From Deltaproteobacteria bacterium (GTDB lineage Bacteria > Desulfobacterota > Syntrophia > Syntrophales > UBA2210), in the NCBI GenBank assembly GCA_016933215.1, contig JAFGBH010000042.1:1-40622 (forward strand): 40,622 nucleotides of DNA, read 5' to 3'. Positions within the stretch are counted from its first letter, which is position 1; each line of letters opens with the position of its first letter. Below, piece by piece: positions 23,668 to 40,525 of this stretch. Under the pieces are notes generated by a model. The model ran no database searches, was not told where the DNA came from, and saw only the letters and a list, made by a program, of their open reading frames with translations. Both the position numbers and the translations under genes were made by a program.

Positions 23668-24045
23668 TTAGCCGAAAATGTATTTCAGCAATGGATTGGC
23701 GTAGAGTATTGACAGTGCGATAACCAGCGCGTAAATCGCGATGGACTCTGTCATTGCCATACCAACCAGCATGGTGAGCATGATTTTACCCTGTGCATCG
23801 GGGTTTCTGCCAACGGCATTTGCGGCACCACTCGTTGCCTGCCCCATTCCCAAACCGGGTCCAAATGCACCGATTCCCATTACGATACCGGCTGCAAGTA
23901 CACTACAGGCGATGACAAGCGCCTTTGCCGATAAATCTCCCGATGCAGCGGCAGCTCCCTCACTTGCAATCGCGAAAGAAGAGGTCACCATCAGTAGAAA
24001 TAATGTGAACAGACTGTAGACAATACCTTTCAACGATTTCCTCAT
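23668..24045 (-). CDS. atpE: F-type ATP synthase c subunit, first paralog
   Basis: 125 residues. A signal-peptide-like leader (about 1-28, ending SSFAIAS) precedes the two-helix hairpin, a form seen in other Desulfobacterota c subunits. Helix 1 has the glycine-rich GIGAFGPGLGMG, the polar loop is GRNPDAQG, and helix 2 carries the ion-binding Glu100 with Ser101 and Tyr105 (TESIAIYA). Ser after Glu and the Tyr are shared with sodium-type c rings, but the helix-1 glutamine of Ilyobacter-type rings is Met here, so ion choice is undecided. It lies alone, away from atpB. AGGAGG is 10 nt before the ATG. Confidence 0.94.
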   Translation of the reverse strand: MRKSLKGIVYSLFTLFLLMVTSSFAIASEGAAAASGDLSAKALVIACSVLAAGIVMGIGAFGPGLGMGQATSGAANAVGRNPDAQGKIMLTMLVGMAMTESIAIYALVIALSILYANPLLKYIFG

Positions 24046-28716: not shown

Positions 28717-29007
28717 ATGGACAAAGAAGACAAGAAGCTACTTTTAGAATTAGGATATGCAAGCAGCCTTGGCATTGCCATGGCGATCGCGATCTTTGGC
28801 AGCATTTTGATCGGGGCATATATCGATCGTAAACTCGGAACGGGGACGAAATTCTCTGCCATCTTTCTTCTGGTAGGAGTTATCGCAGGTTTCAGGACCT
28901 TTTACGTCTTTATAAAACGATATTTACCCGACAAGGAAGTTAAGCCCGAAGGAAGGAATATGGCGAATGGGCCAGGTAACAAAAACCACCCTCCAAAGAA
29001 GAATTGA
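28717..29007 (+). CDS. atpZ: AtpZ/AtpI-family small membrane protein of the F0 operon
   Basis: 96 residues with two transmembrane helices (about 15-37 and 43-65), the turn having the family's GAYIDRKLGTGTKF pattern. These proteins precede F0 genes and have been proposed to help c-ring assembly or carry magnesium/calcium. The C-terminus is hydrophilic and runs 41 bp into the next gene. There is no clear Shine-Dalgarno. Confidence 0.85.
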   Translation: MDKEDKKLLLELGYASSLGIAMAIAIFGSILIGAYIDRKLGTGTKFSAIFLLVGVIAGFRTFYVFIKRYLPDKEVKPEGRNMANGPGNKNHPPKKN

Positions 29008-29389
29008 GATAGGATGTTGGGTGGTTTTAGGCATATCACTTATCATCGGTTTAGCCTTTTTCCCCTTTTACTTTACCCTTGGAATACTTTTAGGCGGTCT
29101 TATCAGTATCCTGAACTTCTACTGGCTTTCGAGGGATATTAAGAGGGTATTTCAGCAATATTCGAGCAAGGCAAAACCCTATATAATGATAAAGTTTTAT
29201 ATACGGTTCGCTGTTACGGGAGTTATCATCTTTTTTATCTTAACCCAGACGCCGGTGGATCTGATCGGCTTGATCGTTGGTCTTTCGCTGGTTGTCATAA
29301 ATATTTTGCTGATTGTTATAGCGACAAATCTGAAAAATCCCTTAAGGAGGCTGAAGAAGAAAAATGCATCCCCTTTTATTTCTCGATAA
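28967..29389 (+). CDS. atpI: ATP synthase subunit I (AtpI family)
   Basis: 140 residues, four predicted membrane helices separated by a basic segment ([19 protein letters not shown]) and ending in a strongly basic tail. Position between atpZ and atpB and this topology fit the ATP synthase I family, which assists c-ring assembly in other bacteria. GGAAGGA lies about 10 nt upstream. It overlaps atpZ by 41 bp and atpB by 26 bp, so the three are translationally linked. Confidence 0.85.
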
Positions 29390-30017
29390 TCCTTATTTTC
29401 CACCACATGTAACCTATACGTGGTTCATCATGCTGGTCCTGGCGCTGTTATCATTCCTGGCAACACGGAGGCTCAACCTTTATCCCGGGAGATTGCAGCA
29501 CGTCTTTGAGGTAGTCATTAACGGTATCAGAAATCTGATGTTGGATTCTATGGGGCCCGATGGACTCAGGTTTTTCCCCCTGATTGCCACGATTGCCGTT
29601 TTTATTCTTACTGCGAATTTGCTCGGTATTATACCGGGATTCGAGTCGCCGACGGCAAATCTCAATACCACTGTCTCCATGGCTCTGGTCGTATTTATCA
29701 TGACGCATATTGTCGGTGTCAGGGTACACGGGTTCGCCTATGTCAAACAGTTTTTGGGTCCCGTCTGGTGGATGGCTCCCCTGATGGTGCCGATCGAACT
29801 TATCAGTCATCTTGCCCGTCCCCTTTCGCTTTCCGTCCGACTTTTCGGAAACATAATGGGTGAGGATCTCGTTCTTGTCATTGTCCTCTTTCTGGTTCCC
29901 TTCCTCGTTCCATTGCCCGTTGTAATACTCATGATCTTCACGTCGGCAATCCAGACGTTGGTCTTCATGATGCTCTCGATGATATATATCAAGCTGGCGA
30001 TGGAGGGAGCACACTAA
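29364..30017 (+). CDS. atpB: F-type ATP synthase a subunit
   Basis: 217 residues, a compact version of subunit a. The essential stator arginine is Arg159 in [15 protein letters not shown]; the last helix has [16 protein letters not shown]. Together with the c ring it forms the two ion half-channels. It is unusual that no c-subunit gene follows: a strong terminator lies 27 bp after the stop. The two c-subunit genes of the window are elsewhere. Confidence 0.96.
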
Positions 30018-30244: not shown

Positions 30245-30490
30245 TTACAGCTTGAGCAGTTTTTTCATTTCGACCCAGGCATCCCGGTAGAGTCGACCGA
30301 TGCAGAGCAAGATGGCCAGGAAGAGGAGACCGAACATGAACGTGGGCTGAGTACCGAAGATGGAATCGAGCCACCGGCCGAAGAGGAAGAAGAGGGCGGA
30401 GCAGATAACGAGGGTGAAGCTCCACACACTGATCTGGAATATCTGGGAGAAGCTTTCCATGTAATTATTTTTTTTGCGTGTGATCAACAT
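30245..30490 (-). CDS. small two-helix membrane protein, AtpZ-like
   Basis: 81 residues. Two hydrophobic helices are separated by FGRWLDSIFGTQPTF, which matches the G-x-W-L-D...G-T-x-P turn of the AtpZ family more closely than the atpZ gene at 28.7 kb does. The C-terminus is basic (YRDAWVEMKKLLKL). AGGAG lies seven bases before the ATG. It is the second gene of a minus-strand pair, 22 bp after its partner. A role in F-ATPase assembly is possible given the neighbours; assignment to the family is by eye. Confidence 0.6.
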   Translation of the reverse strand: MLITRKKNNYMESFSQIFQISVWSFTLVICSALFFLFGRWLDSIFGTQPTFMFGLLFLAILLCIGRLYRDAWVEMKKLLKL

Positions 30491-30512: not shown

Positions 30513-30788
30513 TTAGCTGACAACCGATTTCAAGGCCTCGATCACCGGAGCGGTGAAGAGGGCAATGAGAACGGTGTAAAGGGCGAAGGACCCGACGGCC
30601 TCGCTGAGGTAGATCTTTGAGTATTTGTGTTTCAGTGAGGTAATGATCATACCGCCCACGATCAGGCATCCAAGGTGGAAGTAGGGGAAGTTCGCCGCAT
30701 TGCTTGCCACATATTCTGCATAGCCGAACGATGCCGTGACGAGTACCACGAATATTGCCATCAGTGATGTTTGGAATAATTTTTTCAT
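30513..30788 (-). CDS. small membrane protein with signal-like leader, function unknown
   Basis: 91 residues: a leader (about 1-24, ending SFGYAEY) and two hydrophobic helices (about 36-51 and 64-85) joined by a basic loop (SLKHKYSKIY). The second helix, SEAVGSFALYTVLIALFTAP, carries a glutamate and faintly resembles helix 2 of a c subunit, but helix 1 lacks the glycine repeat and the loop lacks R-x-P, so it is not called atpE. AGGAGGT precedes the ATG. Its upstream region has a sigma-54-like sequence. I do not recognise the family. Confidence 0.6.
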   Translation of the reverse strand: MKKLFQTSLMAIFVVLVTASFGYAEYVASNAANFPYFHLGCLIVGGMIITSLKHKYSKIYLSEAVGSFALYTVLIALFTAPVIEALKSVVS

Positions 30789-30840
30789 GACCTGTAACCT
30801 CCTTTGAGGGTTTTTTATTTTCCATTTGTCTTTTAGTAAT

Positions 30841-30855
30841 GAAATAACCGTGCCA
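30841..30855 (-). promoter_or_regulatory. sigma-54-like promoter upstream of the small membrane gene pair
   Basis: Minus strand reads TGGCAC (30855-30850), five bases, then TTTC with A following. The -24 element is perfect; the -12 has TTTC instead of TTGC, which weakens it. It lies about 50 bp before the start of the pair. Confidence 0.3.
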
Positions 30856-31027
30856 GATTCACAGATTTCTGAAATAATATTTGTAAGCTGCCGGAAGTAA
30901 AGGGATATTGCATGATGAGGTAAACTGTAAAGAGGACCCCCAATGGCCAGAATCAGGACTATTCTTTAACAAAATGTTCAGTAAGATTGAATGAAATGTT
31001 GAAGAAAGGGATAAAGAATTACAATAA

Positions 31028-32407
31028 TCACTCTCGTTCGAAGGTGATACCGTACTTCTCCAGTTTTCTTTCAAATGTGGGGCGGGAAATACCAAGGATA
31101 TCGCATATCTCGCCCTTGTTTTTATCGGTATCTCTGATTACTTTTCTGATATGTCGCTCTTCTATCTCATCGAGAGTGAGAAACTCCCCGGCAATCGATT
31201 TTGTTTCCTCTTCACGTTCCGTCTCCATTTTCTTATAATCAACACTCTCGAACAGCACTGGAAAATCTTCCTTCGCGAGGATCTGTCCTTTGGCGACGAC
31301 AGCGGCCCTGACCAGAAGGTTTTCAAGTTCTCTGATGTTTCCCGGCCAGGAATACTGACGAAAGATATCCATCATCTCATCGGAAACACCGACGATCCGC
31401 TTATGAAGGTCACGATTAATTTTCGTGAGAAGATAGCCTATGAGGGGTTCAAGGTCTTCCATCCTGTTTCTCAGCGGTGGTATATCGATCGATACGATAT
31501 TCAGCCTGTAGTACAGATCATCCCTGAATTTACCTTCTTTTACCAGCGTCCGGAGGTCTTTGTTGGTCGCAGCTATGATACGCCCGTTTACCCTCACTTT
31601 GTCCTTACCGCCAACCCTTTCGAACTCCATCTCCTGAAGCACTCGCAGGAGTTTTGCCTGAAGGTTGAAGGACATCTCGCTGATTTCATCGAGGAAAACC
31701 GTTCCGTAGCGGGCAAGCTCGAACTTTCCTAATTTCCTCGTTATCGCACCGGTAAAGGACCCCTTTTCATGACCAAAGAGCTCTGATTCGAGAAGGGTTT
31801 CCACGATAGCGGAGCAGTTGACGGCAATGTAGGGTTCGCTCCTTGAGGTGTTGTTATGGATGACCTTTGCGATGAGCTCTTTTCCCGTTCCGCTCTCTCC
31901 CTGAATAAGCACTGTTGTCTTGCTCTGAGAAACGACGCCGATGGTCTTGAATATTTCGCTCATCTTTGGGCCGGTTCCGATAATATCTCCGAACTTGAAG
32001 TCGCGGCTCGGTTCCATGAGAAGACCGTTGATCTTCCGTTCCATATTAATGGTATTGATTGCCTTTTTGATTGCGATGTCGAGTTCATCAACATCAACGG
32101 GTTTGTGGATGTAGTCGAAGGCGCCGCCCTTCATTGCCTCGATGGTTGATTCCATATCGTGGTGGGCCGTAATCATAATGACCTTGACGTTTTCGTTTTC
32201 CTCTCTCAGATCCTCGAGTACGGTAAAACCATCAATATCGGGGAGTCTGATGTCGAGGATCACTACATCGGGAGAGGTCTCCACAAATCTGTTCAAGCCG
32301 TCCGTGCCTGTGAGGGCCGTCTGTACCTTATATCCTTCTTCTGTCAGATAGAGTTCGAGCGTTTCACAGATGGAACTGTCGTCATCAATAACAAGAATCT
32401 TTGACAT
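31028..32407 (-). CDS. NtrC-family sigma-54-dependent response regulator
   Basis: 459 residues in three domains. The receiver (1-120) has Asp8-Asp9, phospho-acceptor Asp52 and Lys102. The AAA+ domain (about 140-370) has Walker A GESGTGKE (170-177), the sigma-54 contact loop GSFTGA (216-221, a known variant of GAFTGA), and Walker B TVFLDEI. A Fis-type helix-turn-helix follows (about 420-455: NKGEICDILGISRPTFERKL). It should activate sigma-54 RNA polymerase when phosphorylated by the kinase encoded just upstream. GAGGT is seven bases before the ATG. Its target is unknown; the adjacent c-subunit promoter region is the obvious candidate. Confidence 0.95.
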   Translation of the reverse strand: MSKILVIDDDSSICETLELYLTEEGYKVQTALTGTDGLNRFVETSPDVVILDIRLPDIDGFTVLEDLREENENVKVIMITAHHDMESTIEAMKGGAFDYIHKPVDVDELDIAIKKAINTINMERKINGLLMEPSRDFKFGDIIGTGPKMSEIFKTIGVVSQSKTTVLIQGESGTGKELIAKVIHNNTSRSEPYIAVNCSAIVETLLESELFGHEKGSFTGAITRKLGKFELARYGTVFLDEISEMSFNLQAKLLRVLQEMEFERVGGKDKVRVNGRIIAATNKDLRTLVKEGKFRDDLYYRLNIVSIDIPPLRNRMEDLEPLIGYLLTKINRDLHKRIVGVSDEMMDIFRQYSWPGNIRELENLLVRAAVVAKGQILAKEDFPVLFESVDYKKMETEREEETKSIAGEFLTLDEIEERHIRKVIRDTDKNKGEICDILGISRPTFERKLEKYGITFERE

Positions 32408-32461: not shown

Positions 32462-32515
32462 TGAATTGAACAGCGAGCGTATTCCCCGCTTTCTGCAGCG
32501 GGGATCTTCAATTGT
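32462..32515. repeat. dispersed hairpin repeat, copy C, overlapping the kinase stop codon
   Basis: TGAATTGAACAGCGAGCG, TATTCCCCGCT (arm 32484-32490), loop, AGCGGGG (32497-32503), ATCTTCAAT. Outer ATTGAA (32465-32470) and TTCAAT (32507-32512) are complementary. The TGA stop of the histidine kinase (32510-32508) is part of the terminal TTCAAT. It lies in the kinase-regulator intergenic gap of 100 bp. Confidence 0.75.
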
Positions 32516-35500
32516 TGTCCGGGTTCTTTGTGCCAATCGGGAGCGTTACTCTAAACCGTGTTCCCTCTCCTTCTTTGCTTAATATTTCAACAGTACCCTC
32601 GTGCAGTTCAATTATCTTCTTGACCTGTGAAAGCCCCAGACCAGTACCGTATCTTTTCTTCGTAAAGAATGGATTGAACAGGTGAGCAAGGTCTTCTTTT
32701 TCTATGCCGCACCCGTTGTCATCAATCTCTATTACGACGTATTCGCTATCACGTGAGAGCCTCTTTGAGGATATCAGGAGGGTTCCCTTTGTCTCCATTG
32801 CATCGATGGCGTTGTGATAGACATTTAAAAAAGCCTGTTCAAGCATTGCCGGGTCGGCCTCAAGAAGTGGAATTTTCTTCTCGAACCTCTTTACTACCTG
32901 AATCTGTTTGTCCGAGATGGATTTTTCAGCCATAGCCAGCGCATGCTCGAGAATCCCCTTTATATCAGAAGGCTCCTTCTTTGGTGCTGACGGTCGTGCA
33001 AATATTAAAACATCATTGACAAGTTTTTCAAGGTGTTCAACTTCCCTCTGGGCGATCCTGAATCTTTTCAGATCGTTCCCGGAGGGTTGTATGCGCTTTT
33101 CCAGGATCTGAAGACTCATCTTTATAGACGACAGGGGATTTCTCACTTCGTGGGCGATTCCCGCGGAGAGCTGTCCCACGGCGGCGAGCTTCTGACTCTC
33201 GTAGTATTTGTTTTCGAGATTCTTGAGATCGGTTATATCTCTCTGAACAAGGACATACCGATCGGTCCCCTTAACGGGGCTCGGCGTTATGAGCAGATTC
33301 CTCCGTGAGCCGTCACGAGCGGTAACTTCAAGTTCGTAGGGTGTAAAGACCCCCCTCTTTGCAGCTTCCCATTTTTCAAGCATATATTCCCGATGCTCTG
33401 GTTCCACGAAATCGGTGAAGTGTTTACCCCTAATCTCCCTCGAGGCACCACCCCGTTCTTTCTTGATATCACGACTGACGTAATTAATGATTCCGTCACC
33501 GCTGAGATCAAAAATCTTCTCCGGCAGATTGTCGATAATCGACTGGAGATAATTATAGAGCTCTTCAATCTCTTTTCTGAGGTTTATATTTTCTGTCAAC
33601 TCTTTCTGGAGATTGTCGGCAAATTTTCTCAGATTCTGAGCCATTTCATTTTCTTTTGATATATCTTGAAGGGTTTCAATAACGGAGGTGATTTCACCCT
33701 TTTCATCATAGATCGGTGCCGCCAGGAAATAAAGATGACGATCTTCCCCCCCAAGATCCTTAAAGAAGTCCGTGGCCTCGTAGGCCCCTTTGACCCTCTC
33801 CGATTTTCTTATCTTTTTTTCACCGTAATAGTTTTCCAGTCCTTCAATGTCCTGGTCAATAATGAAATCGGCAATCACCGGCCTTTTATGAGTGTAAAAA
33901 GGGAGGTAGTGTCTGTCGGTTCCGATCATTTCCTCCGCGCTGCAACCGGTGAGCTCGGCACATGCCCTGTTCCAGAGGATGATCGTATGCTCTCTATCGA
34001 GCACGAAGGTGGGGATTGGTGACCCTTCGGTAATTCCTTCGATGGTCTTTTTTTCCCTCTGGATCGTTTCGGCGTACTCCTTCAGGTTATTGGCCATTTC
34101 TACCTCGTTTGATACGTCCTGAAGGGTTTCAATGACTGCGGCAATTTCCCCCTTTTCATCATAAATCGGTGCCGCCAGGAAATAGAGATGACGATCTTTG
34201 CCACCCAGTTCTTTGAAGAAGTCTCGTGCTTCGTAGGCACCTTCCACGGCTTTCGATTTTGTAATGCCCTGCTTTCCGTAGTAGTTTTCAAGTGTTTCAA
34301 AGTCCTGATCGATAATGAAATCGGCAATCACCGGCCTTTTGTGAGTGTAAAAAGGGAGGTAGTGTCTGTCGGTTCCGATCATTTCCTCCGCCCCGTAGCC
34401 GGTGAGCTCGGCACATGCCCTGTTCCAGAGGATAATTTTGTGCTCCCTGTCTATGACGAACGTGGGAATTGGTGACCCTTCGGTGATCCCTTCGACGGTC
34501 TTTTTTTCTCTCAGAAGTTTTCCCTGCCATTCCTCACGTTCCTGAAGGCGCTTCAACTGTTCCCTGAAATAGACATTCCGTGCGCTGGACCGGGCTATCG
34601 ATATTCCGGTAATAATGACGGCTATGATGAGGCCGAGGGCTCCGAGCATGATATTTCCGGAGGCTTTTCTCAGAAGGAGGATTACCGAATCGTAGGGAGT
34701 AACGACGGCAAAGGACCAGAGGTTTTCACTCATATGAATCGGTGCGTAGCCGATAATTGTCTTTATCGTTTCTCCCGTCCTGTTGCGAAAGAGAGAGATT
34801 CCATATCCTTTGGTTTCCCTTGGAAAGAATTCATTCATGGGTGCGGTCATTGTGTCTTCAGTGATGCGTGCCGCTGCCCCGATTATATCAGGATTTGAGT
34901 TAATGATGATCTGGTCATCTTCATCGACCATCAGAAAATCGTTGGTTGAGAGGCCGCGTGCCGGATACATATATCGATCCACAATCGCGTGAATGGAGAT
35001 GGTGGCAAGGACTGCGCCGGTGAACTCTCCCTCGGTATTGAGTTTTGGAATGCCGATGACGATTGAATCGATTTCCGTGCCGTTGCCCGCTGTTCCCGCT
35101 GCTTCTCGTATAATTTGCTTTCCTATATAGGGTGCGTGGCTCTTTCTTATTTTCTTAAAAAAGGGATATTCCTTGAAGCTTTTATCCCACATTCCCTCCA
35201 TATGAGAGTCAGGGTATCCGCAGATGACCGTTCCGCTTTCGTCCAATCGGACGATCATCTGGACCTTGCCGACGAGAAAGTCATAGATGGCCTGGATGCT
35301 TACCACCGTTTCCGGCGGGGCGCCGCTGTCTCCGCAGTGAAGACTGGAAAGGAGAAGGGAACTTTTTTCAATATTGACGATAAGGTCCTCTATGCCGTTT
35401 GCCACACTCCCTGCTATGGTGGCCTGTTGCCTGCTGAACTGCTCCACGATTGCCTTTTCCCTGGCGTGGTTCACGGTGAGAGCAAGGAGGAGAATCAGGA

Positions 35501-35567
35501 CAACGACGACCAGTGTCGCTATCCAGATGGAGAACTTAAATTCGGTTTTAAAAAAGCTTTGCTTCAT
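32508..35567 (-). CDS. membrane sensor histidine kinase with Cache and three PAS domains
   Basis: 1019 residues from the ATG at 35567 (AGGA six bases upstream); a TTG two codons earlier is less likely. Order: transmembrane helix (about 14-34), periplasmic double-Cache-like domain (about 40-295), second helix (about 305-325), two near-identical PAS units (from 360 and 511, period 151 residues), a third divergent PAS (about 672-785), the HisKA domain with His806 in GIAHEVRNP, and HATPase boxes NVYHNAIDAM, DNGCGI and GTGLGL. It would sense an extracellular small molecule and phosphorylate the NtrC-type partner. The last codons lie in a repeat copy. Confidence 0.95.
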   Translation of the reverse strand: MKQSFFKTEFKFSIWIATLVVVVLILLLALTVNHAREKAIVEQFSRQQATIAGSVANGIEDLIVNIEKSSLLLSSLHCGDSGAPPETVVSIQAIYDFLVGKVQMIVRLDESGTVICGYPDSHMEGMWDKSFKEYPFFKKIRKSHAPYIGKQIIREAAGTAGNGTEIDSIVIGIPKLNTEGEFTGAVLATISIHAIVDRYMYPARGLSTNDFLMVDEDDQIIINSNPDIIGAAARITEDTMTAPMNEFFPRETKGYGISLFRNRTGETIKTIIGYAPIHMSENLWSFAVVTPYDSVILLLRKASGNIMLGALGLIIAVIITGISIARSSARNVYFREQLKRLQEREEWQGKLLREKKTVEGITEGSPIPTFVIDREHKIILWNRACAELTGYGAEEMIGTDRHYLPFYTHKRPVIADFIIDQDFETLENYYGKQGITKSKAVEGAYEARDFFKELGGKDRHLYFLAAPIYDEKGEIAAVIETLQDVSNEVEMANNLKEYAETIQREKKTIEGITEGSPIPTFVLDREHTIILWNRACAELTGCSAEEMIGTDRHYLPFYTHKRPVIADFIIDQDIEGLENYYGEKKIRKSERVKGAYEATDFFKDLGGEDRHLYFLAAPIYDEKGEITSVIETLQDISKENEMAQNLRKFADNLQKELTENINLRKEIEELYNYLQSIIDNLPEKIFDLSGDGIINYVSRDIKKERGGASREIRGKHFTDFVEPEHREYMLEKWEAAKRGVFTPYELEVTARDGSRRNLLITPSPVKGTDRYVLVQRDITDLKNLENKYYESQKLAAVGQLSAGIAHEVRNPLSSIKMSLQILEKRIQPSGNDLKRFRIAQREVEHLEKLVNDVLIFARPSAPKKEPSDIKGILEHALAMAEKSISDKQIQVVKRFEKKIPLLEADPAMLEQAFLNVYHNAIDAMETKGTLLISSKRLSRDSEYVVIEIDDNGCGIEKEDLAHLFNPFFTKKRYGTGLGLSQVKKIIELHEGTVEILSKEGEGTRFRVTLPIGTKNPDNN

Positions 35568-35628
35568 TCCCAATCCTGATTTTCTTCATAACCTTTTATC
35601 AATCTAAAAGCATTTGGCGAAAGCCCCG

Positions 35629-35808
35629 CTATTCTTCATCGCGATTCCGTTTTTTCTCTTCATATTCTTTAATGCCTATCACGACGTAAACGACAACGGC
35701 GGCGCCGAGAGAAACAATAAGGGTAATAAATCCGCTTTCGATCCCTATACCCCACTTACAAATAAGCCAGGCAACAAGATAGGTTGCCACTGTTAATATT
35801 TCCTGCAT
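35629..35808 (-). CDS. small membrane protein, function unknown
   Basis: 59 residues from the ATG at 35808, chosen because GAGG stands seven bases upstream; a TTG two codons earlier is possible. Two hydrophobic helices (about 5-17 and 26-45) and a charged end (KEYEEKKRNRDEE). It lies 61 bp upstream of the histidine kinase in the same direction, so it may be the first gene of the kinase-regulator operon. No family recognised; a short accessory membrane peptide for the sensor is a guess. Confidence 0.55.
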   Translation of the reverse strand: MQEILTVATYLVAWLICKWGIGIESGFITLIVSLGAAVVVYVVIGIKEYEEKKRNRDEE

Positions 35809-35826
35809 TATCAAACCTCATCAAAA

Positions 35827-35960: not shown

Positions 35961-36146
35961 TATACCTTTCGGAAAAGTGTCTGCACGGGATACTACAGAC
36001 CTTGCCGCTAATTTTCAATAAAATTATGTATCAGCGACGGGAGGGTGTCATTTCCTTGGTATCTCTCTTGCGTTTTGTGGGATGTATGATGTAAGAAGGC
36101 ATGACAGCTCAGCATGCACATTTTGGTTCTTCCATTATACTTTTCG

Positions 36147-36169
36147 TTCAATTTATGGGATAAATTGAA
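36147..36169. promoter_or_regulatory. 23-bp palindrome, candidate enhancer site
   Basis: TTCAATTTAT, GGG, ATAAATTGAA: two perfect 10-bp arms. Its centre is about 64 and 151 bp upstream of the transcription starts predicted for the two sigma-54-like promoters, the second being a typical distance for NtrC-type activators. The activator gene is 3.7 kb away in the same neighbourhood. Binding is inferred. Confidence 0.5.
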
Positions 36170-36194
36170 TAGAATGTTAAACACGTTAACCAAA

Positions 36195-36210
36195 TGGCAC
36201 AGTTACTGCT
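36195..36210 (+). promoter_or_regulatory. sigma-54-type promoter 1 upstream of the second c-subunit gene
   Basis: TGGCAC, AGTTA, CTGCT: perfect -24 element and -12 with GC at 36208-36209, exactly 10 bases between GG and GC. One mismatch (C for T) in the -12 box. Confidence 0.5.
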
Positions 36211-36282
36211 CGGTATGAAGGAGAAGTAATAAGCGAGTGATTACAGGCTTTTCAGTACAAAAGGTGTTATGTCAAGCATAAA

Positions 36283-36298
36283 TGGCATATCTGTTGCT
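36283..36298 (+). promoter_or_regulatory. sigma-54-type promoter 2 upstream of the second c-subunit gene
   Basis: TGGCAT, ATCTG, TTGCT: GG at 36284-36285 and GC at 36296-36297 with the required 10-base spacing, and a full -12 TTGCT. The transcript leader would be about 93 nt before the ATG. Confidence 0.55.
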
Positions 36299-36401
36299 TA
36301 TACGTAGAGACGAATTTGAGAACGATTATTTTTTCTCAAAGACATCACTTCGTACTGAAAGGTGCGGGTCAAATTACAGTTGTCCAGGAAAGGAGAAAGA
36401 A

Positions 36402-36776
36402 ATGTTAAGGAAATCAGTAAAGTGGGTATTTACTCTACTAACATCAGTGGCAGCTTTGTTGGTGTCTTCGCCGGTGGTATTCGCGGCTGAAGCAATTCCG
36501 GAGGATGGTTCGTATATTAAGGTCATCTTTGCTGTTGGTGCAATGGTTGGTGCCGGGCTTGCCATCGGTATGGGCGCAATCGGTGCCGGTGCCGGTATTG
36601 GTAATGCTGCAAGTGGAGCATGTAGTGCAGTTGGCAGGAACCCTGGGGTACAGGGAAAGATCATGATGACCATGCTGGTTGGTATGGCTATGGCAGAATC
36701 AATTGCTATCTATGCTCTTGTTGTTTCGCTTGTCCTTCTCTATGCAAACCCCTACAAAGCTTTTCTTTTTGGCTAG
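36402..36776 (+). CDS. atpE: F-type ATP synthase c subunit, second paralog
   Basis: 124 residues from the ATG at 36402, which has GGAAAGGAGAAAG in front. A signal-like leader (about 1-29) is followed by glycine-rich helix 1 (GLAIGMGAIGAGAGIGNAASGA), the loop GRNPGVQG and helix 2 with ion-binding Glu99, Ser100 and Tyr104 (AESIAIYA). It differs from the first paralog in helix 1 (GAGAGIG instead of GPGLGMG) and in the leader. It is the only F0 gene in its operon; a Cache sensor gene follows 61 bp later. Two sigma-54-like promoters precede it, an unexpected type of control for a core ATPase subunit. Confidence 0.95.
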   Translation: MLRKSVKWVFTLLTSVAALLVSSPVVFAAEAIPEDGSYIKVIFAVGAMVGAGLAIGMGAIGAGAGIGNAASGACSAVGRNPGVQGKIMMTMLVGMAMAESIAIYALVVSLVLLYANPYKAFLFG

Positions 36777-36837: not shown

Positions 36838-38139
36838 ATGGCAGAAACTACAAGAGGTAAGCAGTTTTTTACGGTAGCGAGAGTATTCTTCCTGCTTATC
36901 GTCATTCCCCTCTTACTGATGTCTTTTCTAATCGCCAACGGCATTTTTCAATTAGGGGACACATCGAAAAAAGGGGCAATTTCTGTTCTTGATCAGAAAT
37001 CGCAGAGCGAGATCTTGGTGAGAACCACGAGCGTGGCCGAAAATGTCGCCGATTTTTTGCGGGACTGTGAGAAAGATGTCTTGGTCTCGACAATTCTGCC
37101 GACAACCGGTGAGGCATACAAAGAATTTGTGGAAAAGAACAAACAGGTTCTCTGGGCCAAGCAAGACGGAAAGATCGTAAAAGAGCTGAAACCCCTCTAT
37201 ACCGAGATGTCGCTTGTTGACAAGGCGGGGAATGAAGTCATCAAAATAGCTGGCGGTGAGATTGTACCGGATGGTGCGCTGATAAATGTCAGCGATCCTG
37301 CAAACACCCCATACAAGTCAGAAGATTACTTTTCAAAAACAAAACAGCTGAACAAGGGCGAGGTTTATATCTCCCATGTTACCGGCTGGTATGTAAACAG
37401 GACTGAGTTTGAAAAGGGAAAACGCTTTGCGGGCATTATTCGCCTGGCAACGCCGCTATTTGATAAAGAAGGATTCGCAGGAATCATAACACTTGCTCTT
37501 GATGTACAGCATCTGGCGAACTTCACGGACAATATAATACCGACTGAAGCCGGTCATGTCCTCGAAGCGGATGCATCGACGGGCAATTATGCCTATATGG
37601 TGGATAACAGGGGATTCGTTATTTCCCATCCAAACGATTATCACATTGCCGGTCTCTATAAGGATGGGTCTCCCGTTCCTCCAATTACGGGAGAGACATC
37701 CAAGGAAATGGCCGACAAGGGAGAAGAGGTCTTAAACCTCAATCTTCTCGAGGCTATGGATCCGGGATTACCGAAGGTAGCAAAGAGTGCTGATGAAGGA
37801 AATTCGGGTATAGAGGTATATAAATTTAGTGGTCACACCAAGGTTGTGGCCTACGCACCGATTCCCTTCTATAATGTCAGCTATCCTTCCCCTGCGGGAT
37901 TTGGATGGATCGGCATGGGTATCGATGTTGAAAGATTCAATGAGCAGGCCATGAGAGCCTCTGCGGAAATAGAAAAAGAGGCAAAGGCATGGATGACGAC
38001 AATCATTTTAATTCTCATCCTCGCGGTTGTTCTGCTCTTCATAATTTCTGCACTTCTTGCAAGGGGAGTTACCCGTTCAATTGATGCAGAAGTTCCCGAA
38101 GGTTCAAAAGAACCAGAGTATTATGATGACGAAGATTAA
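36838..38139 (+). CDS. membrane-anchored Cache-domain sensor without output domain
   Basis: 433 residues: a transmembrane helix (about 13-35), a large extracytoplasmic Cache-type region (about 40-375, including the ligand-domain signature YMVDNRGFVISHPND), a second helix (about 384-408), then only about 25 residues with a HAMP-like beginning (ARGVTRSID) and an acidic tail (EPEYYDDED). Receptors of this build normally continue into a HAMP and methyl-accepting, kinase or GGDEF domain. It probably signals through a partner, or the protein is a binding/co-sensor. A clean terminator follows. GGGGGAGAAGG precedes the ATG. Confidence 0.88.
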   Translation: MAETTRGKQFFTVARVFFLLIVIPLLLMSFLIANGIFQLGDTSKKGAISVLDQKSQSEILVRTTSVAENVADFLRDCEKDVLVSTILPTTGEAYKEFVEKNKQVLWAKQDGKIVKELKPLYTEMSLVDKAGNEVIKIAGGEIVPDGALINVSDPANTPYKSEDYFSKTKQLNKGEVYISHVTGWYVNRTEFEKGKRFAGIIRLATPLFDKEGFAGIITLALDVQHLANFTDNIIPTEAGHVLEADASTGNYAYMVDNRGFVISHPNDYHIAGLYKDGSPVPPITGETSKEMADKGEEVLNLNLLEAMDPGLPKVAKSADEGNSGIEVYKFSGHTKVVAYAPIPFYNVSYPSPAGFGWIGMGIDVERFNEQAMRASAEIEKEAKAWMTTIILILILAVVLLFIISALLARGVTRSIDAEVPEGSKEPEYYDDED

Positions 38140-38167
38140 GCAGTAGAACGAAGTAAAGAACACGAGA

Positions 38168-38199
38168 GGGCCGGAAGTTTAACTTCCGGCCCTTTTTTT
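38168..38199 (+). terminator. intrinsic terminator after the Cache sensor gene
   Basis: GGGCCGGAAG (38168-38177) and CTTCCGGCCC (38183-38192) form a perfect stem with loop TTTAA, then seven T. Confidence 0.92.
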
Positions 38200-38354: not shown

Positions 38355-38585
38355 ATGTCTGAAGATGATAACAGAGTGAAAGATGGCGATCGGATATACG
38401 ATCTTGTGGATGTAGTGGAAGAAGGGGCACGCAAACCTGCACCTGAAGCTATCCTGAATGAGGAGATAATCAGGAAGGTCGAGGAGATTTCCGAGAAAGT
38501 GGCCAGACAGATGTTCCCCCGTATAGCCGAGCGAATTATAAAAGAAGAGATAGAAGCATTAAAGAAAAAGATAGATGATGAGTAA
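38355..38585 (+). CDS. small acidic protein with PopZ-like C-terminal helix, function unknown
   Basis: 76 residues, soluble. The N-terminal part is acidic and probably unstructured (SEDDNRVKDGDRIYDLVDVVEEG). The C-terminal half is helical, with the pattern VARQMFPRIAERIIKEEIEAL, similar to a motif at the ends of PopZ/DUF2497 and several deltaproteobacterial polar or signalling proteins. Its last 11 bases overlap the next gene, indicating coupling. The resemblance is short, so no function is assigned. Confidence 0.65.
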   Translation: MSEDDNRVKDGDRIYDLVDVVEEGARKPAPEAILNEEIIRKVEEISEKVARQMFPRIAERIIKEEIEALKKKIDDE

Positions 38586-39771
38586 ATCACCGTGGGCAAG
38601 TGGTGGAAGAAATTTCCTGAAAAAAGTTCCCCTTGCCTTTTTTTTTGTTATGCTTTGTTGTGTGCTCTATCCCGCCCGGACATTCCCTCAGGAACAGTTC
38701 AATATCTGCGAGATAGAAACCGAGGGAGTTAGCGTTATTATAAGCGGTGATATGGCCCGTGCACGGGATAATGCAGTAAAAGAAGCCCAGAAACTGTCTA
38801 TAGAAAAGGCAGTCAAGACATTCCTCTCTCCGGAAGCAGTGGCCGAGCATTTCCAGGGCCTCAGTGACCATATTTATTCCAAATCAGGGGATTACATTCA
38901 GAACTATACAATTATAGAGGAACGAACGGAAGGCGATTATTATCGAGTCAGGATCAGGGCAGCCGTCATGGCGGAAGGCATACGAAATGACCTTGAATCG
39001 ATGGGATTTCCCGTGGCGAGAAGGAGCCTTCCCAGGGTTATGGTTATCATTTCTGGAAATGGTAATGAGTTGCGGGATATCGACAATACGCTGAAGCCGG
39101 AGGAATTGTCATCCTCGATATATATAATCAATGAAGATCTTTCAGAAGAGGGATTTATTATTGTCAGATATCCGCGCGATGACTATGGGGAAGAGGAGTT
39201 GAATGAAGATGATGTCGTATCGCTGGGAAGGAATTTCAACGCCGATCTCGTGATTGTCGGTAAGGCCTCGGTGGAGGAGATGAGTGTCATCGAGGGAACG
39301 GAAATAAAATCCTATGAAGTGCGTGTCTCAGCGAAGGCCATAACCACTGATAATGCTGAAGTCATTGCCTCGACCGCCGCACGGGCTGAATCGTACACAG
39401 CCGATAGTATTACGGGACGATTGGATGCTATCGAAAGGGCGACAAAAGAGGTGGCTGACTATCTGAAAGTGCGGATAATAGCCGACTGGCAGCGGGAAGT
39501 CAGCTCTGTCAAGGTAATTTCGGTTACGATTAGGGATATAATGAGCTATTCCGATTACGTTACCCTGAGAAATGTATTGAAAAACGAGACAAGGGGTGTA
39601 AAGAAGGTCTTTCAAAAGAGGATGGAATCAGGTATAGCGATCTTGGATATCGAGATGGAAGGGAATGCACGATTCCTGGCTAACGAACTCTCTTCCGATA
39701 AATTTAATGCATTCTCGCTTGGTATCGTCTGTACGGACGAGGACAGTCTGGAAGTAAGTATTATAAAATAA
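38575..39771 (+). CDS. exported protein with FlgT/LPP20-like N-terminal region
   Basis: 398 residues with a signal peptide (hydrophobic stretch about 19-34, likely cut near RTFPQ-EQ). The mature start (EIETEGVSVIISGDMARARDNAVKEAQKLSIEKAV) has the 'G-x-A-x-x-A-R-x-x-A-x-x-x-A' layout of FlgT N-terminal/LPP20 domains found in periplasmic outer-membrane-associated proteins. The middle contains DLVIVGKASVEE and AEVIASTAARAE, also as in that family. No flagellar genes are near. ATGATG gives two possible starts three bases apart. It overlaps the preceding small gene and precedes the lipoprotein by 94 bp. Confidence 0.7.
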   Translation: MMSKSPWASGGRNFLKKVPLAFFFVMLCCVLYPARTFPQEQFNICEIETEGVSVIISGDMARARDNAVKEAQKLSIEKAVKTFLSPEAVAEHFQGLSDHIYSKSGDYIQNYTIIEERTEGDYYRVRIRAAVMAEGIRNDLESMGFPVARRSLPRVMVIISGNGNELRDIDNTLKPEELSSSIYIINEDLSEEGFIIVRYPRDDYGEEELNEDDVVSLGRNFNADLVIVGKASVEEMSVIEGTEIKSYEVRVSAKAITTDNAEVIASTAARAESYTADSITGRLDAIERATKEVADYLKVRIIADWQREVSSVKVISVTIRDIMSYSDYVTLRNVLKNETRGVKKVFQKRMESGIAILDIEMEGNARFLANELSSDKFNAFSLGIVCTDEDSLEVSIIK

Positions 39772-39865
39772 GCGAAAGTCACCGAAGTCTTGCTGCAGGG
39801 ATCTCCATCTGTTGCGGATAACTTTTGATTGTATGATCCTGCCCTTCGGTTCATGAGGTTATCAT

Positions 39866-40525
39866 ATGTTTTCTTGGAAGTATACAGGGGTGTTTCTGGC
39901 GGTTTGTGCCATTTTCATATCTGGATGCAGAGGCACCATTCCTTCTTTTGTAGCCCCCGATTTTGATAAGAGGTGTATACGCCTTATCGCATTGATGCCC
40001 ATTGACAACAAGACCAAAGACCAGAAGGCGGCAGTTATATTGAGAAAGGAGTTGCTCGAAGAGCTCTATTTCAAGGGGTATCCCCAAATACCGCTCGATG
40101 TTATTGATGGGAAGATCAAAGAAATTAATGAAAGAAACCTTGTCACAACGGGGAAACGAATTCCGCCCGATGTGATCGGTGAGGCGCTCGGTATCGATGC
40201 GGTTATGTACTGTACACTGACTGAATGGGGGGTATCGCTCCGCTATCTCTACGCACCCACCACAGTTGCGGCTTCCTTTGAGCTTCTGAGCGCTAAAACG
40301 GGAGAGACCCTCTGGAGATCAAACCAGAAGGTTGTGGAGAGAGACTATGACATTACCCAAAAGAGACTCGAGATGAAGTCTCATGAGTCCTATGAAATAG
40401 CTGTTCGGGAAGTCTTGGATAAGGCCATAGCGACATTTCCAGACGGTCCCGATTGTCTGGGAGATCCGTCTTCCAGTACGGGAGTCAAGGATATTCTAAT
40501 ACGGTTGAAAAAGTCGGTACAATGA
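39866..40525 (+). CDS. outer-membrane-type lipoprotein, GNA1162/DUF799-like
   Basis: 219 residues. A lipobox FISGC places the lipidated cysteine at 21; the following residues (RGT) do not signal inner-membrane retention under the enteric rule. The body (LIALMPIDNKTKDQKAA; VIGEALGIDAVMYCTLTEWG; ASFELLSAKTGETLWRS) matches GNA1162/DUF799 putative lipoproteins, which resemble TolB-N/CsgG-associated folds. With the preceding exported protein it probably works in envelope assembly or export; the cargo is unknown. GAGG lies seven bases upstream. Confidence 0.82.
   Translation: MFSWKYTGVFLAVCAIFISGCRGTIPSFVAPDFDKRCIRLIALMPIDNKTKDQKAAVILRKELLEELYFKGYPQIPLDVIDGKIKEINERNLVTTGKRIPPDVIGEALGIDAVMYCTLTEWGVSLRYLYAPTTVAASFELLSAKTGETLWRSNQKVVERDYDITQKRLEMKSHESYEIAVREVLDKAIATFPDGPDCLGDPSSSTGVKDILIRLKKSVQ

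Follow-up and report, generated by a model that had tools for sequence, protein, structure and literature searches.

We propose that the second F-type ATP synthase c-subunit gene of a Syntrophales-type bacterium, here called c2, encodes a rotor isoform of the main F1Fo ATP synthase that is switched by a two-component system. As an explanation of the locus as a whole, we consider this reading probable. Control of c2 by sigma-54 and an NtrC-type activator is strongly supported by sequence comparison, because the promoter is conserved, the predicted activator boxes stand in a fixed register, the regulator is linked to c2 and the two genes co-occur. Core F-ATPase genes are normally under housekeeping promoters. 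The first-pass annotation of this DNA had raised signal-dependent control of the c-ring subunit as a novelty; comparison among relatives supports such control for c2, but the other F-type c gene, c1, does not appear to be under sigma-54 control. A literature search, for which most subscription papers were beyond reach, turned up no description of a bacterial c-subunit gene under sigma-54 control.

The locus

The window, that is, the whole 40,622-nt stretch of DNA analysed here, is contig C30 of a 2.69-Mb Syntrophales-type MAG. Its plus strand carries hemL-gmd-fcl-atpZ-atpI-atpB, and no c gene directly follows atpB in the window. After atpB, the minus strand carries sTM30.5-atpZ2, a small operon, followed by genes for an NtrC-family activator, for a histidine kinase with dCache and PAS domains and for a small membrane protein. 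Beyond the latter, again on the plus strand, lie c2, a dCache membrane protein and a strong terminator. The rotary ATPase genes and the neighbours of c2 are as follows:

23668 to 24045, minus strand: c1, canonical-type c-subunit, without a sigma-54 promoter (PF00137)
28717 to 29007, plus strand: atpZ, before atpB (PF09527)
28967 to 29389, plus strand: atpI, before atpB (PF03899)
29364 to 30017, plus strand: atpB, F-type a-subunit (PF00119)
35629 to 35814, minus strand: small two-TM protein, conserved between the kinase and c2 (ORF and neighbourhood comparison)
36402 to 36776, plus strand: c2, second F-type ATP synthase c-subunit (PF00137, 67.7 bits, over the cut-off)
36838 to 38139, plus strand: dCache membrane protein, downstream partner of c2 (PF02743, 55.6 bits, cut-off 45)
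38164 to 38196, plus strand: intrinsic terminator closing the c2-Cache operon (15-bp stem and T tail)

A PF00137 search found two F-type c genes in the genome, c1 and c2, both inside the window, and the earlier description of c2 as a second atpE was therefore correct. A V/A-type identity for c2 was ruled out; that type is represented by the remaining PF00137 matches, which lie in two V/A-type clusters on contigs C54 and C34. An N-ATPase identity was likewise rejected (TIGR03322, 67.6 bits against a cut-off of 130.85). Given the 61-bp gap between c2 and the dCache gene and the position of the terminator, we infer that the two genes are co-transcribed. Farther along, at 38355-40525, the window encodes a 76-aa protein, an FlgT_N-like protein and a GNA1162-like lipoprotein, which are neighbours of the locus only in the close family.

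The c2 subunit and its dCache partner

The 124-aa product of c2 has a signal-peptide-like N-terminus and the features of an F-type c subunit, namely a two-TM hairpin, a TM2 carboxylate (E99) and a polar RNP loop (R79-N80-P81). The TM2 glutamate serves ion carriage and the RNP loop contacts F1; each is present in 90/90 c2 proteins. In the tree, c2 forms a single clade with support of 100/100 and a long stem. Beside the ion site, c2 has nearly fixed I66 (89 of 90 proteins) and A98, whereas c1 mostly has M66 (the residue in most c1 proteins) and T/I98. Residues of TM1 also differ between the two; the TM1 glycine pattern is identical and gives no ring-size prediction. Neither c1 nor c2 has the glutamine of the Na+ site (the Q32 equivalent that, together with E65/S66, defines the Na+ type). 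These missing residues rule out a Na+-type ring for c2, and a proton-type subunit is more likely.

Two relatives of one genus, G052 and G036, bear most directly on the role of c2. The genome of G052, a single contig of 3,179,300 bp that is 100% complete, has no c genes other than c2 and an N-ATPase-type one; G036 likewise has no c1, and its other c gene is of the N-ATPase type. Both genomes contain atpB and F1 gamma, and G052 keeps atpB in window-like synteny (hemL-gmd-fcl-atpZ-atpI-atpB-NtrC). As c1 is missing, c2 would be the only F-type c available to the atpB-containing synthase. The c2 gene of G052 is preceded by a perfect -24/-12 site (L269) and a perfect Box II; in genomes such as these the sole F-type c gene is c2, under predicted sigma-54 control. 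The Cache partner is absent from both, where a PEP synthase-type gene follows c2 instead (L268:5250-8399, L269:5656-8763). The loss of c1 in this genus could reflect a later change in the role of c2. From its single clade, the retained glutamate and F1-binding loop, and the two genomes in which no other F-type c is left, we conclude that c2 is probably a genuine subunit of the rotor.

A rotor subunit need not be a distinct isoform. It is possible, if not the reading that we favour, that c2 serves as a further gene copy that adds to the total supply of c when more ATP synthase is needed, the resulting rings being functionally alike. Indeed, c1 and c2 both keep all known essential residues and share the lack of the Na+-site glutamine. 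However, a pure copy would not be expected to remain so distinct and so conserved, with a fully supported clade, a long stem and fixed differences beside the ion site and in TM1.

The Cache partner is a protein of 433 aa in which a dCache domain stands between two TM helices, the second followed by a short acidic tail. Its predicted model has a dCache fold (pLDDT 81, Foldseek E 5e-12). It has the periplasmic dCache domain of a sensor receptor but not the cytoplasmic output domain (kinase, MCP or GGDEF): such a domain was found in none of 17 diverse aligned homologues, all of which end in a TM helix and about 20-30 residues. No NCBIfam model matches this c-linked dCache family. A dCache gene nearly always follows c2, and about 40 genomes share the pair. 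Elsewhere in the phylum, homologous dCache domains are the sensors of large multidomain proteins. In the genome studied here, a 1144-aa ORF (G000:C69:21823-23064) includes a dCache domain that shares 54% identity with that of the c2-linked protein and may sense the same ligand.

In one family, f52, c and Cache genes are paired twice: besides c2 and its partner, a c1-like c gene and a Cache paralogue stand together directly upstream of rnf genes (L262:3816-9781, L265:4121-10215). This recurrence of the pairing suggests a functional tie of the Cache protein to c-rings and not merely to the neighbouring kinase. The same family has ORFs of 326-576 aa in which PF00137 is repeated several times in tandem, that is, fused multi-hairpin c-subunits (G325:C38:10510-12197, G188:C47:245246-246956, G261:C95:113264-114961 and G090:C41:118968-120165), which are, to our knowledge, unusual for bacteria.

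The constancy of the pairing, its recurrence in f52 with a c1-like c beside rnf genes, and the lack of an output domain would also fit a c2 that works outside the ATP synthase, in a c-ring of its own that serves as the scaffold on which the dCache protein forms a membrane sensor or channel complex. We regard this as unlikely, since all c2 proteins retain the F1-binding loop and the TM2 glutamate, and since in G052 and G036 c2 is the sole F-type c and lacks a Cache partner where atpB and F1 gamma are present. The rotor role that we prefer leaves the pairing of c2 with an output-less, sensor-like protein unexplained.

Regulation of c2 and of a second operon

The regulatory genes and the sites upstream of c2 are as follows:

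31028 to 32407, minus strand: NtrC-family sigma-54 activator with receiver, AAA+ domain with GSFTGA, and Fis-type HTH (PF00072, PF00158, PF02954)
32508 to 35573, minus strand: histidine kinase with periplasmic dCache, PAS domains, HisKA and HATPase (domain search; next to NtrC in relatives)
36135 to 36151, plus strand: predicted activator Box I, TTATACTTTTCGTTCAA (same register in relatives)
36147 to 36169, no strand: perfect 10+3+10 palindrome, TTCAATTTAT-GGG-ATAAATTGAA, covering the inner half-sites of Boxes I and II
36165 to 36181, plus strand: predicted activator Box II, TTGAATAGAATGTTAAA, consensus TTGAAY-N5-RTTCAA (same register in relatives)
36195 to 36210, plus strand: second sigma-54-like site, TGGCACAGTTACTGCT (present, but not conserved in relatives)
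36283 to 36298, plus strand: conserved sigma-54 -24/-12 promoter element of c2, TGGCATATCTGTTGCT (site kept in 86 of 89 orthologous upstream regions)

The activator and the kinase do adjoin c2 on its other side, as the first-pass annotation had stated, and they are conserved neighbours across Syntrophales. The activator combines the receiver, sigma-54 AAA+ and Fis-type HTH domains of an NtrC-family response regulator, with a phospho-acceptor region (VVILDIRLP) and the GSFTGA loop; its best NCBIfam model is AtoC, with a score below the cut-off. An alternative ATG start of the kinase is possible at 35567. An orthologue of the activator (66-83% identity) is found in 47 of the 60 genomes of relatives. 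Both the activator and c2 are present in 42 of these and neither in 11, while two have c2 only and five the regulator only (Fisher p = 8e-7, in a test that ignores shared ancestry and MAG gaps, most of the genomes being incomplete MAGs). The activator normally adjoins c2; elsewhere it lies beside atpB (G052, G036) or c1 (G020, G039), and therefore follows the F0 genes.

Upstream of c2, an enhancer-like palindrome had been noted. The perfect 10+3+10 repeat is indeed present, but as such it is not conserved in the aligned relatives. Instead, in the alignment of close relatives, the conserved upstream blocks resolve into two NtrC-type 17-bp boxes, of which Box I is a half-degenerate copy of the Box II type. 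The outer arms of the palindrome (TTCAA/TTGAA) are the inner half-sites of these boxes. As only these arms are conserved, the palindrome was ruled out as an operator; on this alignment it is a by-product of the two predicted boxes, and it is the pair of boxes that would be the enhancer. Relative to the -24 element, Boxes I and II lie at -148 and -118 in the window, and many families keep this register, with boxes at about -146 and -116; they thus fall ~100-150 bp away, as the upstream activator sites of a sigma-54 promoter do. The best box match has at most two mismatches in 67 of 89 c2 upstream regions, compared with ~6% of shuffled ones. In part of the Smithella-like group, sigma-54 sites are present but the boxes are weaker or displaced. 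When 60 genomes were searched for the combined pattern (box, gap of 84-112 bp, -24/-12), it occurred in 31 places, 28 of them upstream of c2, against one for the reversed control.

A first-look screen with an NtrC-type query gave several dozen candidate stretches per genome, so that other activators are likely to exist, and the binding specificity assigned to the neighbouring regulator is a predicted one. Nevertheless, we find it quite improbable that the sigma-54 site is real but used by another NtrC-family activator, with the neighbouring pair controlling something else, given that the neighbouring activator is linked to c2 or F0 genes across families and that the box pattern is nearly specific to c2 promoters.

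The promoter itself had been described as two sigma-54 sites with GG-N10-GC spacing. Both are present, 88 bp apart in the c2 intergenic region and each one mismatch from TGGCACN5TTGCW, but only the proximal one is conserved. The genome has one rpoN gene. As TGGCAYN5YTGCW has 25 matches in the genome and the reversed pattern 9, two sites at this distance in one intergenic region are far above chance. In 89 distinct c2 upstream regions from relatives, we scored the best GG-N10-GC site against the consensus. A site with at most two mismatches was found in 86, almost always 83-133 bp before the start codon, compared with ~1.2% of shuffled regions. This site corresponds to the proximal one at 36283-36298, which has the -24 GG and -12 GC, the 10-bp spacing and the TGGCAY-N5-TTGCW pattern of a sigma-54 promoter. 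The distal site, in register in none of 11 close relatives aligned, is probably not the main promoter, and two alternative c2 promoters were ruled out on the same ground. Upstream of c1, a site with at most two mismatches occurs in none of the 11 c1 genes within the test set, and one with at most three in none of a separate set of 30. Short motifs do arise by chance, as the nine reversed matches illustrate, but a chance origin of the sites in AT-rich intergenic DNA is refuted by comparison with relatives, both elements keeping their position across ~90 upstream regions, and we give that reading practically no weight. The comparison of this intergenic region in relatives, which had been suggested at the outset, upholds the proximal site and the boxes but not the distal site or the palindrome.

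A second operon, on the other side of the regulator, may be a further target:

30245 to 30490, minus strand: AtpZ-like protein (atpZ2), F0F1-ATPase gene-1 family (PF09527, 32.5 bits, cut-off 26.6)
30513 to 30788, minus strand: sTM30.5, small membrane protein, first gene of the operon (neighbourhood comparison)
30840 to 30855, minus strand: sigma-54-like site TGGCACGGTTATTTCA, perfect -24 and variant -12 (same site type in 7 orthologous loci including the window)
30965 to 30981, minus strand: predicted activator-type box (motif match)
30987 to 31003, minus strand: predicted activator-type box (motif match)

The two boxes lie 110-150 bp farther upstream than the sigma-54-like site. Orthologous sTM30.5-atpZ2 loci have a perfect or near-perfect -24 and a variant -12 at -56 to -70, with boxes usually at -180 to -215. 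In Smithella-type loci, the two genes lie directly downstream of the Cache gene. Proteins of the AtpZ/AtpI family are associated with F0 assembly.

A model for the control of c2

Based on these comparisons, we propose the following model. The membrane kinase would perceive a signal through its dCache sensor and phosphorylate the NtrC-type activator, which would bind the two 17-bp boxes ~120-150 bp upstream and turn on sigma-54 RNA polymerase at 36283-36298. The transcript would carry c2 and the dCache membrane protein without an output domain, and the operon of sTM30.5 and the AtpZ-like protein would be switched on at the same time. When induced, the cell would thus gain a different or additional rotor subunit together with an accessory sensor protein, and c2 would be incorporated into the ring of the main F1Fo ATP synthase. 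The function that we infer is signal-dependent rotor supply or isoform switching.

How many ions each ATP costs is set by the c-ring, which in bacteria is usually regarded as invariant and as expressed in a housekeeping manner. Syntrophs, for their part, live close to thermodynamic equilibrium. A more daring version of the model is a "gear shift", in which the kinase swaps the c-ring isoform and so alters the proton cost or the direction of ATP near the thermodynamic limit, the Cache protein being a c-ring partner that senses an extracytoplasmic ligand. This version is tentative, and we think it rather unlikely in its entirety.

The individual parts have known counterparts. Like NtrBC-type systems (NtrC, AtoC, ZraR), the locus combines a receiver-AAA+-Fis HTH activator, a histidine kinase, paired enhancer boxes and a -24/-12 promoter. 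However, those systems have nitrogen, acetoacetate or metal targets, whereas the putative targets here are a rotor subunit, a Cache protein and an AtpZ-like protein. The Cache partner shares with dCache_1 sensors (PctA/PctC, Mlp24, vpHK1S-Z8) a periplasmic dCache fold, here from a predicted model; in contrast to them, it has no kinase, HAMP or signalling domain, ends in a TM helix and acidic tail, and is paired with c genes. N-ATPase operons also supply a second set of rotary-ATPase subunits, including c, in many of the same genomes. Unlike c2, a lone c gene that coexists with N-ATPase-type c genes in relatives, they encode a whole separate enzyme. The closest parallel for c isoforms is Podospora anserina, in which Atp9-5 and Atp9-7 are two structurally different c-subunits with condition-dependent expression and different ATP yields (PMC4956034). 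These, too, are paralogous c-subunits of one ATP synthase, and they illustrate that control of c isoforms can change ATP yield, although they are fungal and mitochondrial and have no sigma-54, two-component regulator or Cache partner.

Through its link to c genes, a broadly conserved family of dCache proteins gains its first functional context. A regulated rotor isoform, if true, would bear on the long-standing question of whether the ion-to-ATP ratio can be changed on demand, and would make it directly testable. Our findings suggest that a large group of energy-starved anaerobes may use a signal to adjust the ATP synthase rotor.
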